NCBI GenBank assembly: GCA_025359425.1
Contig: JANYGC010000099.1
Coordinates: forward strand, 1-64,000
From: Sphingomonadaceae bacterium
GTDB taxonomy: Bacteria; Pseudomonadota; Alphaproteobacteria; Sphingomonadales; Sphingomonadaceae
Reading direction: 5' to 3'
Length of the DNA: 64,000 bases
Each line of letters starts with the position of its first letter. Positions within the stretch are counted from its first letter, which is position 1. Below are positions 2,817 through 8,547 of the stretch, piece after piece. A program made the position numbers and the translations under genes. The notes under the pieces were generated by a model that saw only the letters and a list, made by a program, of their open reading frames with translations, was not told the origin of the DNA and ran no database searches.

Positions 2817-2844
2817 ATACGCAGCGCCGAAGCCCGCCCCTTGA
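2817..2844 (-). promoter_or_regulatory. Predicted ECF-sigma promoter for copC-copD (TCAAGGG-N13-CTGCGTAT)
   Basis: Reverse-strand match, same 13-nt spacing as the sites at 2875 and 4200; 31 nt upstream of copC. Confidence 0.6.
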
Positions 2845-2874
2845 AAAATCCGTACGGGGCAGATCAATCTGGTA

Positions 2875-2902
2875 TTGAGGGATCGCGCCATGCCATGCGT
2901 AT
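2875..2902 (+). promoter_or_regulatory. Predicted ECF-sigma promoter for the cnrYXH-like operon (TTGAGGG-N13-ATGCGTAT)
   Basis: Shared motif and spacing with the 4200 site; 26 nt upstream of the predicted start. Confidence 0.65.
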
Positions 2903-2927
2903 AACAACGACATTGGAGTTTCTGGCA

Positions 2928-3200
2928 ATGAGCAACCTTGACGAGATGCTGGCACGGCTGGCTAGCGCGCCTCTCCCCTCGCGTCTGGCGACGATGGACC
3001 AAGCGGTATTTGCCGGGCTCGCACACTATGACCGATCGAGCGTAACCGGATCGCTCGGCATCGCCGCAGCAGTGGCGCTTGCGGTCGGCGTCGCCAGTAC
3101 CGGGTTCCCCGGGACTGCAGCGGTAGCCGCGCCGTCGGTCTCGCCGTTTGGGGTGCCGCCTGCGCTGGTGCCGTCTTCGTTGCTGCTGGCCTCGAAGTGA
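2928..3200 (+). CDS. CnrY-like small single-TM anti-sigma protein
   Basis: 90 aa (MSNLDEMLARLASAPLPSRL...), one hydrophobic segment; first gene of a Y-X-H arrangement overlapping the next gene by GTGA. Confidence 0.6.
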   Translation: MSNLDEMLARLASAPLPSRLATMDQAVFAGLAHYDRSSVTGSLGIAAAVALAVGVASTGFPGTAAVAAPSVSPFGVPPALVPSSLLLASK

Positions 3201-3637
3201 CAAACCTCCGCCGCACACTGCTGGTGGCCTCGATTGCATTCGCTGCGGCGATTGCTGGTGTGTGGGTTGGCCGGGCCGTGCTGCCGCCCAAACCTGCCGC
3301 TGACAGCGAACTGCATGCCCTGCTCCACGATCAGCTCAATCTCGATACCGCTCAACGCGCCCGGATTGATGCGCTCGAGGGGCAATTCGCAATACGCCGC
3401 AAAGCGCTCGAACTCGAGATGCGCGCCGACAATGCCAGACTGGCGGCGGCAATCGAGGCCGAACATGGCTACGGCCCTCAGGTTTCAGCGGCCATCGACC
3501 AATCGCATATGGCAATGGGTGAACTGCAAAAAGAAACGCTGGAGCATGTTTTTGCGATGCGCCGGCTCTTACGGCCAGATCAGGCTGCAAAATTCGACGC
3601 GGCCGTGGTCAAGGCGCTGACCGCCGATCAGCAATGA
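3197..3637 (+). CDS. CnrX-like periplasmic heavy-metal sensor
   Basis: GTG start; N-terminal TM anchor; HxxxH, E and HxxxM at the spacing of the CnrX metal ligands. Confidence 0.8.
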   Translation: MTNLRRTLLVASIAFAAAIAGVWVGRAVLPPKPAADSELHALLHDQLNLDTAQRARIDALEGQFAIRRKALELEMRADNARLAAAIEAEHGYGPQVSAAIDQSHMAMGELQKETLEHVFAMRRLLRPDQAAKFDAAVVKALTADQQ

Positions 3638-4203
3638 CGCTGCCGCTGGGCGAGTGCTCGGACGGTGAGCTGGCGGCGCTCGCCTTGGCAGGACGGCAGG
3701 CGGCTTTTGGCGAACTCCTGGATCGGTACCGTTCGCCCGTCTTCCGCCTGGTGCGCGGCAATACCGGCGATGACGATGCGGCGCTCGATGTGACGCAGGA
3801 AGCATTCATAGCCGCATTCGCTGCACTCAAAAGTTATGATGGCACTCGCCCGTTCAAGACCTGGGTGGCGCGGATTGCGCTCAACAAATGCCGCGACTGG
3901 GCGCGGCGCCGAACGGTGCGGCGCTTCTTCTCGTTTGCGATGCCGATCGAGGCGGCGTCGAACATCTCCGACGACAGTATTCCGGCCGATCGACAGCTGG
4001 CCGACCGGCAAGAACTTGCCCGTGTGCGCGAACTGATTGCCAAACTCCCAGCGGCGATCCGCGAGCCCCTGATTTTGCGCACTGTCGAAGGACTTTCTCA
4101 GACTGAAACAGCAGGGATCCTGGGGATCAGTGAGAAGGCGGTTGAAACGCGAGTCTACCGCGCACGCAAAGCGCTCGAAGCGGGCCGCACATTAAATTTT
4201 TGA
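3634..4203 (+). CDS. ECF RNA polymerase sigma factor, CnrH-like
   Basis: Sigma70 region 2 and region 4 features (DVTQEAFIAAFAAL, GLSQTETAGILGISEKAVETRVYRARKAL); ATGA overlap with sensor. Confidence 0.9.
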   Translation: MTLPLGECSDGELAALALAGRQAAFGELLDRYRSPVFRLVRGNTGDDDAALDVTQEAFIAAFAALKSYDGTRPFKTWVARIALNKCRDWARRRTVRRFFSFAMPIEAASNISDDSIPADRQLADRQELARVRELIAKLPAAIREPLILRTVEGLSQTETAGILGISEKAVETRVYRARKALEAGRTLNF

Positions 4204-4227
4204 GGGCTAGCCTCACGCGATGCGTAT
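4200..4227 (+). promoter_or_regulatory. Predicted ECF-sigma promoter for DUF305-copA-copB (TTGAGGG-N13-ATGCGTAT)
   Basis: Exact repeat of the -35 and -10 blocks at 2875-2902; -35 overlaps the sigma-gene TGA. Confidence 0.65.
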
Positions 4228-4271
4228 GGCCCATCAGCGTTCACCGAGATTCACCGAAGAGGACTGTGGCC

Positions 4272-4838
4272 ATGGCAGGAGAGCATCAGCAGCCCGGTCC
4301 TGGGCATGACGGCACGCATGGTGCGCCGACCCATGCTCGTGAAGCAATGAAGAGTGACGCAAAGGGACGCATTGCCGACACCGGCCATGGCGTGCATCCG
4401 TATCGAAAGCTGTTTGCCGAACTCGTGATTGATTTCGTGATCATGTTTTTCGTGATGTACGCGATGATCGCAAGCGCAGAGCATCTCTATTTCAATATCG
4501 GCAACGTCTACATGACCCTGATGATGGTCGCTCCGATGCTGGCGCTGATGATTGTCTTCATGGGCAAGATGTACCCCTCGCCCAAGGCCAATATGATGCT
4601 GATCGGTCTGGCTGCGTTTATCTTCGCGGTCGGCTGGTTTGGCATGCGTGAACAGCTGGGCGTCGGCGATGCCCAGTTCCTGCGTTCGATGATTCCGCAC
4701 CACAGCGGCGCGATCCTGATGTGTGAGAAGGCAAAGCTGTCAGACCCGGAAACGGTGCGACTTTGTCAAAATATCATTGCAGCGCAGGAACGCGAAATCG
4801 CACAAATGCAGACAATTTTGGCACGAGTTGGAAGATAA
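4272..4838 (+). CDS. Membrane-anchored DUF305 protein with His-rich N-terminus
   Basis: N-terminal His residues, several TM segments, C-terminal FLRSMIPHHSGAILMCEKA...AAQEREIAQM DUF305 signature. Confidence 0.85.
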   Translation: MAGEHQQPGPGHDGTHGAPTHAREAMKSDAKGRIADTGHGVHPYRKLFAELVIDFVIMFFVMYAMIASAEHLYFNIGNVYMTLMMVAPMLALMIVFMGKMYPSPKANMMLIGLAAFIFAVGWFGMREQLGVGDAQFLRSMIPHHSGAILMCEKAKLSDPETVRLCQNIIAAQEREIAQMQTILARVGR

Positions 4839-4842
4839 TTTG

Positions 4843-6606
4843 ATGATGTCATATTTAAGCCGCCGCCAGCTTCTCCAGGGTGCGACCATCGCGGGTAGCT
4901 CGCTGGCGATGGGTTCGCTGTTCCCGGCATGGGCAGCAAGCGGGTCCGCCGGACTCAGTCCGGCGATGGGCTCCGTTTCTGGAACCGATATCGCACTTTC
5001 GATCGGCCATGCGCCATTTCGCGTGGGCGGGAGAACCGGCCACGCGGTAACGGTCAACGGAACACTGCCCGGGCCGATCATCCGGTTGAAGGAGGGCCAG
5101 AAGGTCCGTCTGGCGGTCACCAACACGCTGCATGAAGATTCCTCGATCCACTGGCACGGCATCCTGTTGCCATTCCAGATGGACGGCGTTCCCGGTGTCA
5201 GCTTCCCTGGGATCAAGCCGGGCGAGACTTACAATTACGAGTTCGAGGTCAAGCAGTCGGGCACCTACTGGTATCACAGCCACTCGGGGATGCAGGAAGC
5301 GATGGGCCAGTATGGGGCCATCGTGATCGACCCGGCAGGTAACGATCCGGTTGCCTATGACCGCGAGCATGTGATTGTGCTGTCCGACTGGAGCTTCATG
5401 CATCCGATGGAGCAACTTCGGAAGCTTAAGGCCATGGGCGGCTATTTCAACCACAACAGGCAGACGCTGGCTGGGTTGATCCAGGGCAAGGATCAATCGC
5501 AGTCAGACCGAGCGATGTGGGGCAAGATGCGAATGGATCCGACCGACATCACCGACGTCAACGTTTCGACCTACACCTATTTGATCAATGGGCATGGCCC
5601 ACAGGAAAACTGGACAGGACTGTTCACCCCCGGTGAGCGGGTACGGCTCAGGATCATCAATGCTTCGGCCATGACCAACTTTAACGTGCGGTTGCCCGGA
5701 CTGCCGATGATGGTGGTGGCGGCGGACGGCCAGCATGTCCAGCCGGTCGAGACCGACGAGTTCCAGATCGCGATCGCCGAAACCTATGATGTCATTGTCC
5801 AGCCCAAGGACGACCAGGCTTACGGCCTGATCGCCGAAGCCATCGATCGCTCGGGCCAATGCCGCGCCACGCTTGCCCCGCGCATGGGCATGGTGGCTGC
5901 CATTCCGGCTATCCGCGAACGGCCTCTGCTTACGATGAAAGATATGGGCATGGGCGACATGGATATGTCTGGCGGTGGAGATCATTCCGCACACGGTCCC
6001 GCTGCGCCCGCGCCGGATGCAATGGCTGGAATGGAAATGAGTGGCGGCTCGATGAAAATGCGCGATCCCTCAGTCGCGCCGCAGGTCAAAATGGGGCCGG
6101 GCGTGGCCACGCTTGCCCCCATGCCGATGGATCGCACCGGAGAGCGGCCAACCGGGCTTGAGAAGGTGGATCACCGCGTCCTGACCTACAAGGACCTCAA
6201 ATCGCTCGATCCCAATGCTGACACCCGCAAGCCAGCGCGCGAGCTGGACTTGCACCTGACCGCGAACATGGAACGATATATGTGGTCGTTCGACGGGGTG
6301 AAGTTCAGCGAGGGCGCGCAGCCGATCGCGTTCCGACACAACGAGCGGGTGCGGGTCAATCTGATCAATGACACGATGATGCCGCATCCGATCCACTTGC
6401 ACGGCCATTTCTTCGAGGTCGTGACCGGCAATCCCGGTCACCATCCGGTCAAGCATACCGTCAATGTGCTTCCCGGCGGTAAGGTCTCGTTCGACCTGAC
6501 CGCCGATGCGCTGGGTGATTGGGCGTTCCACTGCCACATGATGCTCCACATGATGACGGGGATGTTCCGCGTCGTCACGGTGCGCCAGGACGAGGACGCG
6601 GCATGA
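4843..6606 (+). CDS. copA: Copper resistance multicopper oxidase CopA
   Basis: Tat-like SRRQLLQG signal; SSIHWHGILLPFQMDGVPG, GTYWYHSHSGMQEAMGQYGA, HPIHLHGHFF, HCHMMLHMMTGMF; Met-rich segment. Confidence 0.96.
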   Translation: MMSYLSRRQLLQGATIAGSSLAMGSLFPAWAASGSAGLSPAMGSVSGTDIALSIGHAPFRVGGRTGHAVTVNGTLPGPIIRLKEGQKVRLAVTNTLHEDSSIHWHGILLPFQMDGVPGVSFPGIKPGETYNYEFEVKQSGTYWYHSHSGMQEAMGQYGAIVIDPAGNDPVAYDREHVIVLSDWSFMHPMEQLRKLKAMGGYFNHNRQTLAGLIQGKDQSQSDRAMWGKMRMDPTDITDVNVSTYTYLINGHGPQENWTGLFTPGERVRLRIINASAMTNFNVRLPGLPMMVVAADGQHVQPVETDEFQIAIAETYDVIVQPKDDQAYGLIAEAIDRSGQCRATLAPRMGMVAAIPAIRERPLLTMKDMGMGDMDMSGGGDHSAHGPAAPAPDAMAGMEMSGGSMKMRDPSVAPQVKMGPGVATLAPMPMDRTGERPTGLEKVDHRVLTYKDLKSLDPNADTRKPARELDLHLTANMERYMWSFDGVKFSEGAQPIAFRHNERVRVNLINDTMMPHPIHLHGHFFEVVTGNPGHHPVKHTVNVLPGGKVSFDLTADALGDWAFHCHMMLHMMTGMFRVVTVRQDEDAA

Positions 6607-7781
6607 AGCTTTTGCTCGCCAGCGCAATCGCCATCGCGAATGCCACGCCTGCCGCCGCGCAGATGGATATGAACATGCCGGGGATGAACATGCCGGCCAA
6701 ACCGGCGGCAAAGCCCAAGCCCGTTGCAAAACCCAAACCCGCAGTGAAGCCCAGACCCGCGCCGAAGGCACGAGCCGCCGTGCCGCAACGGGCCAGACCG
6801 ACTGCGCCACCGTCGGCACCAAGGCCTGCACCCAGGCCGGCTGCCAGCATGATTACTATGCCGGGGATGGACATGACCCCGCCAGCACCGGCTCCGGCAA
6901 CTGCATCGCCTGCGCCCGAACACGATATGTCAACCATGCAAGGCATGGAAATGGGACAGCCCGAAGCCCCTGCTACGGCTGACCCCCATGCGGGCCATGA
7001 CATGGCTGGAATGCCGGGCATGGAACCGCCAGATACCGAGATCGGCGATACGCCGGCTCCGGCTCCGCCCGCCGATCATGCCGCCGACGCGGTGTTTGGT
7101 GCAGACCAAATGGAGCAATCGCGCACCATGCTCCGCCATGAAAATGGCGGAACGCCTGCTTACAGCATCGTCTTCAATCTCGCCGAGTATCGCGTTCAAA
7201 AAGGTGCGGATGCTTACCGATGGGACGGCGAGGGCTGGTTCGGCGGTGACATCGACCGCTTTGTCGTCAAAACCGAAGGTGAAGGTGCTGTTCGCGGAGG
7301 CGTCGAAAGCGCCGAGGTCCAGGCGCTTTATTCCCGCGCAATCGGCCCTTGGTTCAATCTGCAAGCCGGTGTCCGGCACGATTTCAAGCCGGGGCCTCAA
7401 CGCACCTATGCGACCATCGGCTTTGAAGGCGTCACGCCTTACTGGTTTGAGGTCGAAGGTGCGCTGTTCCTTTCGGACAAGGGCGACGTCCTGGGCCGGC
7501 TAGAGGGATATTACGATCAGCGCATCACTCAGAAACTGGTCCTGCAACCGCGGGTCGAGCTGAATTTTGCGGCGCAGGATGTGCCAGCGAACGGCATTGG
7601 ATCGGGATTGTCCGACGCCGAACTGGGCCTGCGTCTGCGCTATGAGATCAAGCGCGAGTTTGCGCCGTATATTGGCGTGTCATGGGAGCGAAAGATTGGC
7701 GACAGCGCCCGCTTCGCCCGCGCTGCAGGAGAGCGGGTGCAAGCCACTAGTTTCGTTGTCGGCATCCGGACATGGTTCTGA
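6603..7781 (+). CDS. copB: Copper resistance outer-membrane protein CopB
   Basis: Met-rich N-terminus and PcoB/CopB-like C-terminal domain; ATGA overlap with copA. Confidence 0.93.
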   Translation: MKLLLASAIAIANATPAAAQMDMNMPGMNMPAKPAAKPKPVAKPKPAVKPRPAPKARAAVPQRARPTAPPSAPRPAPRPAASMITMPGMDMTPPAPAPATASPAPEHDMSTMQGMEMGQPEAPATADPHAGHDMAGMPGMEPPDTEIGDTPAPAPPADHAADAVFGADQMEQSRTMLRHENGGTPAYSIVFNLAEYRVQKGADAYRWDGEGWFGGDIDRFVVKTEGEGAVRGGVESAEVQALYSRAIGPWFNLQAGVRHDFKPGPQRTYATIGFEGVTPYWFEVEGALFLSDKGDVLGRLEGYYDQRITQKLVLQPRVELNFAAQDVPANGIGSGLSDAELGLRLRYEIKREFAPYIGVSWERKIGDSARFARAAGERVQATSFVVGIRTWF

Positions 7782-8158
7782 GTTGCATTGGAGCCTTCCC
7801 GGTTGAAGTGGTTGGGTCCGCCAGTTGGTGAGCAAGAGCCTGACGAACGGTATCATCGGCATCGACGAGGGGCGCGGTACGGACCGTCCGCACGTTAAAC
7901 TTCGTCGGCTCGCGGTCCGTCTTTACCTGTTGGGAGGGTAGCCTAACCCTGTCAAAGGGGACCGCCGCAAACTGTTCCGCCTTTCGGATGACATCGAGAT
8001 AATCGAAGGAGGCGGCAATGGCAGCTAACCTGATCTGCCGAGGGCTGCGATCATCCGGCGCACACCTCTACCGCCGTCTAGTCGTTTGGAACACTGGGGC
8101 GTTCCCCCGGATGCCCCCTATGGCGATCCTCCCCGACACTTTGGAGAGGGGAGGGGGT

Positions 8159-8458
8159 ATGACTGACCGCCTACTTACAACAACCGAGGCTGCCGAACGG
8201 CTGGGCACAACAAGGCGAACACTCGAAGCATGGAGGTTGACCGGAGAAGGCCCTACCTTTCGGAAGCTGGGCGCGCGTATGGTGCGCGATTCCCCAGAAG
8301 ACTTGACCGCCTTCGTTGAAGCTGGAGCACGGCTAAACACCGCTGGCGGGACCCCGCAACGGCTGTGGCAGGTGTGGGCGGAAAGTGCTCCAAACGGCGC
8401 TCAACGCTTACACCATGCTCACACGGCCGGCCGGGTAGCAGTTGCTACAGCCTCCTGA
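8159..8458 (+). CDS. Small helix-turn-helix (excisionase/MerR-like HTH_17) protein
   Basis: LLTTTEAAERLGTTRRTLEAWRLTGEGPTFRKLG motif; sits next to tRNA 3' end. Confidence 0.6.
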   Translation: MTDRLLTTTEAAERLGTTRRTLEAWRLTGEGPTFRKLGARMVRDSPEDLTAFVEAGARLNTAGGTPQRLWQVWAESAPNGAQRLHHAHTAGRVAVATAS

Positions 8459-8471
8459 CATATTGAAAGAA

Positions 8472-8547
<76 letters not shown>

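Follow-up and report, generated by a model that had tools for sequence, protein, structure and literature searches.

The window analysed here, a 64,000-nucleotide stretch at the start of a contig, comes from a Sphingomonadaceae genome assembled to 2.94 Mb in 136 contigs (94% complete) and carries a compact copper cluster. At the centre of this cluster, on the forward strand, lie genes for a 90-aa CnrY-like anti-sigma candidate (2928-3200), named for its position, its length and a PS..SPFG tail common to CnrY, a 146-aa CnrX-like periplasmic metal sensor (3197-3637; Pfam Metal_resist, 1.6e-17) and a 189-aa CnrH-like ECF sigma factor (3634-4203; Pfam Sigma70_r2 and r4_2). They are followed on the same strand by the copA unit, which begins with a DUF305/CopM-like protein (4272-4838; PF03713, 8.2e-13) and continues with the multicopper oxidase CopA (4843-6606; TIGR01480, 1.3e-246) and the outer-membrane copper protein CopB (6603-7781; PF05275, 9.3e-90). 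The reverse strand encodes the periplasmic copper protein CopC (2400-2786; NF033814, 9.2e-30) and the membrane protein CopD (1464-2399; NF033808, 3.2e-86). A second, CueO-like multicopper oxidase gene on that strand, cut by the contig start (1-1383; Cu-oxidase_3, 4.6e-22; CueO model 6.9e-62, below its cut-off), possibly lies further downstream in the copC-copD unit. Just beyond the copper cluster, at 8018-8547, a small open reading frame resembling an excisionase-type helix-turn-helix protein adjoins a tRNA-Lys gene (8472-8547), an arrangement resembling the border of an integrated island; the copper cluster itself extends to the contig start.

Each of the three units is preceded by a site matching TYRAGGG-N13-MTGCGTAT exactly. 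On the reverse strand, the copC-copD promoter (2817-2844) consists of a -35-like TCAAGGG box (2838-2844), 13 nt and a -10-like CTGCGTAT box (2817-2824). On the forward strand, the autoregulatory promoter of the cnrY-cnrX-sigma operon (2875-2902) combines a -35-like TTGAGGG (2875-2881) with ATGCGTAT (2895-2902) over the same 13 nt, and the DUF305-copA-copB promoter (4200-4227) repeats this arrangement of TTGAGGG, 13 nt and ATGCGTAT. The original prediction had named these three sites, their strands and their spacing, and all of its coordinates proved exact. It had also assigned each site to the first gene of a unit, and the sites do precede the cnrY-like gene at 2928-3200, DUF305-copA-copB from 4272 (+) and copC-copD from 2786 (-). 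In the last of the three promoters, the -35 box TGAGGG contains the TGA (4201-4203) with which the sigma gene ends, an overlap that recurs in 9 of the 60 loci counted. No sigma-70-like promoter was found between 2700 and 4400. The geometry of the CnrH promoters, discussed below, leads us to predict a transcription start near 2809-2810 on the reverse strand, and the predicted forward-strand starts lie near 2909-2910 and 4234-4235.

A pattern scan of the window returned these three exact matches and no fourth. Exact matches in 100 dinucleotide shuffles of the window averaged 0.00, and at up to two mismatches the window holds 4 matches against 0.46 expected, although this estimate is biased, the pattern having been derived from the same three sites; the unbiased comparisons are those with the whole genome and with related loci, and each of them gives the motif strong support. 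The informative core of the motif is TGAGGG-N15-(C/T)GCGTA; constraint is weak at the initial T and at the A/C position of the second block.

Of the three proteins encoded between the sites, two are clearly homologous to their CnrYXH counterparts. The best PDB match of the sigma is CnrH (4cxf; 1.6e-32, 116 bits), the next best reaching only 1.5e-18 and 71 bits, and in pairwise alignment it is 41% identical to CnrH of pMOL28 over 180 aa. CnrX and NccX are the only PDB matches of the sensor, which is 37% identical to pMOL28 CnrX. The CnrYXH-like assignment made from the sequence therefore holds for both proteins. Residues H40, H44, E61, H117 and M121 of the sensor align with the metal ligands H42, H46, E63, H119 and M123 (for M123, PMC7689651) of CnrX, so that all five ligands are kept. 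The anti-sigma candidate shares with CnrY its place in the operon, its size, its topology and the PS..SPFG tail segment, with a single span formed by a hydrophobic segment near residues 43-65 and a periplasmic tail containing SPFG; none of the Pfam, PDB, BLAST and profile comparisons matched it significantly to CnrY, the profile comparison giving a probability of 7%.

The likeness extends to the promoters. On pMOL28, TCAAGGG-N17-CGTAT stands before cnrY and CCGAGGG-N17-CGTAT before cnrC; these share the AGGG and CGTAT boxes of the window sites, with a gap one nucleotide longer. The mapped transcription starts of the CnrH promoters (PMC9045368) precede their genes by 24 and 25 nt, which places them 7-8 nt past CGTAT. 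The gap of 17 is also found in three further beta-proteobacterial RND-linked loci, compared with 16 in the window.

To place the sites in a wider context we used 80 related loci (925 kb) taken from a scan of species genomes with the sigma as query, mostly Sphingomonadales with some Caulobacterales and Hyphomonadaceae. With the 13-nt spacer, these loci hold 37, 77 and 96 matches at 0, 1 and 2 mismatches, compared with no exact and at most two one-mismatch matches for each other spacer from 9 to 18 nt, and none for scrambled controls. Across the 80 loci and the window, the core pattern with a gap of 16 from AGGG to CGTA occurs at 257 sites, against at most 2 for any other gap from 12 to 20. An equivalent site stands before the cnrY-like gene in 71 of 79 loci, before copC in 61 of 63, before copA in 70 of 75 and before a P-type ATPase gene in 18 of 49, counts that measure conservation rather than independent events, since the loci share ancestry. 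Two positions outside the search pattern are also constrained: the A preceding GGG is invariant in all four classes of site, and the G preceding CGTA nearly so. A few close matches elsewhere in the relatives precede genes that we judged, by reading their sequences, to encode TonB-dependent receptors, DUF411-like, PepSY-like membrane and CusF-like proteins.

Within the source genome, a scan allowing up to two mismatches gave 30 matches, but only five had none or one, namely the three window sites and a pair on another contig, C90. The remaining matches all carry two mismatches, and the reversed pattern by itself produced seven matches. The refined pattern recovers the same five sites, with none for its reversed control. 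All five lie at copper or cnrY-like genes, and the motif thus passes the genome-wide check of specificity that had been proposed for it. The first C90 site leads into a second copC, behind which lie a DUF2231 gene and the gene for a P-type ATPase with YHS and heavy-metal-binding domains; the second leads into another cnrY-like gene, truncated by the contig end. Together they belong to a second copper cluster (C90, locus L021, 4312-8958) comprising a CsoR-type repressor gene, copC, the DUF2231 and P-type ATPase genes, transposase genes, a cation-diffusion-type transporter gene and the truncated cnrY-like gene. The count of three sites consequently stands for the window and rises to five for the genome. 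The notion of a self-contained regulon was slightly too narrow, given this second cluster and the sites that in relatives also precede P-type ATPase, CusF-like, DUF411-like, PepSY-like and TonB-receptor genes. A second CnrX or close sigma was not found in the assembly, and the partner of the truncated C90 gene is therefore missing from it. An ECF gene on contig C126 (L023) was considered for this role and set aside, as it has no adjoining CnrX-like gene and sits on a very long tree branch. The C90 cluster may belong to a divergent sigma-sensor subfamily that shares the same promoter.

Our best reading of these comparisons is that the locus represents a copper-linked, autoregulated ECF switch of the CnrYXH type, widespread in Alphaproteobacteria. 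The three sites are very probably promoters of the CnrH-like ECF sigma encoded between them, operating in a circuit released by metal, most likely copper. In CnrYXH, the sensor relays its binding of metal to the anti-sigma, which releases the sigma (PMC7689651), and it is by analogy with this system that we propose a mechanism for the window. At rest, the small CnrY-like membrane protein would hold the sigma at the inner membrane, with the CnrX-like sensor bound to its periplasmic tail. Periplasmic metal, most likely copper, would bind the sensor and cause the anti-sigma to let go, and the freed sigma would direct RNA polymerase to TGAGGG-N15-(C/T)GCGTA promoters. These would comprise the promoter of its own operon, generating positive feedback, together with those of copC-copD, DUF305-copA-copB and the copC-DUF2231-P-type ATPase cluster on C90. 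Both recognition of the sites by this sigma and its sensor-driven release are presumed in the model.

The identity of the signal deserves particular attention. We infer copper from the genes that are regulated, while the sensor keeps all five of the nickel/cobalt ligands of CnrX. It is conceivable that, like CnrX, the sensor of this same sigma circuit answers to nickel, to cobalt or to more than one metal, with the copper genes forming part of a broader response; in favor of this proposal, the five ligands are all conserved here and nearly all of them across the related sensors. However, the conserved targets are copper genes and not nickel/cobalt efflux pumps, and the sensors differ at two further positions. 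H104 and M107 are invariant in the sensors of 79 copper-linked loci and in 8 of the divergent subfamily, at a mean pairwise identity of 51%, whereas Glu and Ala occupy the corresponding positions (106 and 109 in CnrX numbering) in CnrX, in NccX and in every other RND-linked sensor examined, a correlation that may reflect a single ancestral difference, the RND-linked sensors being related to one another. One alphaproteobacterial RND-linked sensor (L172) also has Glu/Ala, in a genome whose copper-linked sensors have His/Met. Furthermore, in a distant copper-linked sensor at locus L187 (G435:C1:3694000-3708000), substitutions have removed three of the five CnrX ligands (H42D, E63A and M123I), yet H106 and M109 are kept, as well as H46 and H119; the AGGG-CGTA promoter motif was not found at that locus. 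On balance we consider the broader-metal response unlikely.

Histidine and methionine are typical copper ligands, and for this reason we propose that the pair sets copper sensing, making H104/M107 a candidate determinant of copper specificity. A larger picture follows the same lines: a large alphaproteobacterial branch of CnrYXH-type systems would act as a dedicated periplasmic copper switch, with specificity lodged in two residues (His-x2-Met as opposed to Glu/Ala) and with sigma lineages and promoter gap (16 or 17) changing together. We offer this tentatively, giving it a little under an even chance.

A separate question is which sigma reads the promoters. Among 301 genomes of the family, the exact motif is present in 41 of 90 with a close sigma and in 22 of 211 without one (Fisher p 6e-11). 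Of the 92 exact sites outside the source genome, 57 have the sigma gene within 10 kb, where 0.2 would be expected; these statistics use exact matches only, a one-mismatch scan being dominated by chance and coding-sequence matches. Where a genome has no close sigma, several of the exact sites adjoin an operon for a divergent sigma and sensor (35-40% identity), often with DUF2231. This divergent subfamily with the same motif is seen at L112, L113, L116, L117, L127, L131, L132 and L134. Some other exact sites, with neither a close sigma nor a nearby metal gene, are probably due to chance. In three related genomes (L128, L130 and L135) exact motifs recur away from clear copper operons, and the one at L128 precedes a gene resembling an ECF sigma.

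The motif could in principle be read by another ECF sigma, the local one being merely one of several users. Such a reading draws on the four other ECF-like genes of the genome, all of low similarity, on the second cnrY-like gene with the same motif on C90, and on the divergent sigmas that use this motif in relatives. We nevertheless regard it as very unlikely, as exact sites follow the distribution of the close sigma gene and are found less than 10 kb away from it, and as a sphingomonad-family locus, L186, departs from the gap of 16. Its promoter-like sites all have a gap of 17 and none a gap of 16, a joint shift that is expected if sigma and promoters evolve as a set, although this is a single case; L179 and L182 contain both gaps. 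The original prediction had offered the assignment to the local sigma with caution. That assignment has since been strengthened by co-occurrence, by the autoregulatory site in 71 of 79 loci and by the likeness to CnrH's own promoters, so that the pairing of this sigma with these promoters is, at the level of sequence comparison, strongly supported.

A more distant suggestion is that the sites bind a DNA-binding activator or repressor and are not sigma promoters at all. Proteins of this kind frequently control copper operons, and a CsoR-type repressor gene does adjoin the second copC on C90, but the motif lacks symmetry, keeps a constant gap, lies at promoter distance and points at the first gene of each unit. 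It also matches CnrH promoters with mapped starts, and the window locus contains no recognisable CsoR-like gene, all of which makes the suggestion highly improbable. Finally, a chance resemblance of three GC-rich upstream sequences, which might be suspected of a pattern defined from those same sequences, is refuted by the comparative tests, in which independent loci reproduce the boxes, their spacing and their placement.

Clusters of the copABCD type are usually attributed to two-component or MerR/CsoR regulators, with the CopRS, CusRS and PcoRS two-component systems, which sense periplasmic copper, the usual case. The window departs from this arrangement: its copper genes include no recognisable histidine kinase or response regulator, and a sigma operon stands in that place. 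We found no description of a CnrYXH-type copper regulon in the literature, a search of open-access papers only and so not proof of absence. Sphingomonad plasmids commonly carry close relatives of the sigma, one annotated example having copC, copD, sensor, sigma, copA and copB, and the system is therefore also mobile. Across sphingomonads, many of their plasmids included, copper resistance appears to be under the control of an anti-sigma/sensor/sigma system of nickel type, whose sharp promoter rule allows the regulon to be predicted in other genomes.

Several ECF sigma factors have previously been connected with copper. SigF-NrsF of Caulobacter crescentus is an alphaproteobacterial example induced by copper (PMC8224329); however, its regulon consists largely of uncharacterised genes, without copAB or copCD, and its anti-sigma is different. 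The copper-responsive SigAb-AabA-AabB system of Acinetobacter baumannii resembles the window system in having a small anti-sigma, whose modelled binding resembles that of CnrY, and a second partner protein (PMC12153292). In that system, though, the sigma gene comes first, and direct control covers the sigma's own operon together with relA and a small RNA, with copper genes affected indirectly. CorE, named as the copper ECF in a 2023 study, and CorE2 of Myxococcus xanthus switch on multicopper oxidase and copper ATPase genes in response to copper (PMC10141476), and they share with the window the link between an ECF sigma and genes of these two kinds. CorE senses copper through its own Cys-rich C-terminal extension and without an anti-sigma, whereas the 189-aa window sigma is not of the CorE kind: it lacks a Cys-rich tail, ends 7-8 residues after region 4, has two Cys residues and is encoded in an operon with an anti-sigma candidate and a sensor.

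The closest parallels are the nickel/cobalt resistance system CnrYXH of Cupriavidus metallidurans and NccYXH, in the Y-X-H order, the overlapping genes and the five sensor ligands (PMC9045368, PMC7689651). CnrYXH also shares the AGGG and CGTAT boxes, autoregulation and the position of one promoter just downstream of the sigma gene. Its target is an RND efflux pump, as opposed to copA/copB, copC/copD and related copper genes in the window system, which, having copper genes downstream, is therefore CnrYXH-like and not a nickel/cobalt Cnr determinant. The anti-sigma candidate is not recognisably similar in sequence to CnrY, and the promoter gap is 16 rather than the 17 of the Cnr and beta-proteobacterial sites examined. 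The sensor, too, has H104/M107 where CnrX and NccX have Glu/Ala, and this difference of two residues suggests how one sensor family might separate copper from nickel and cobalt.
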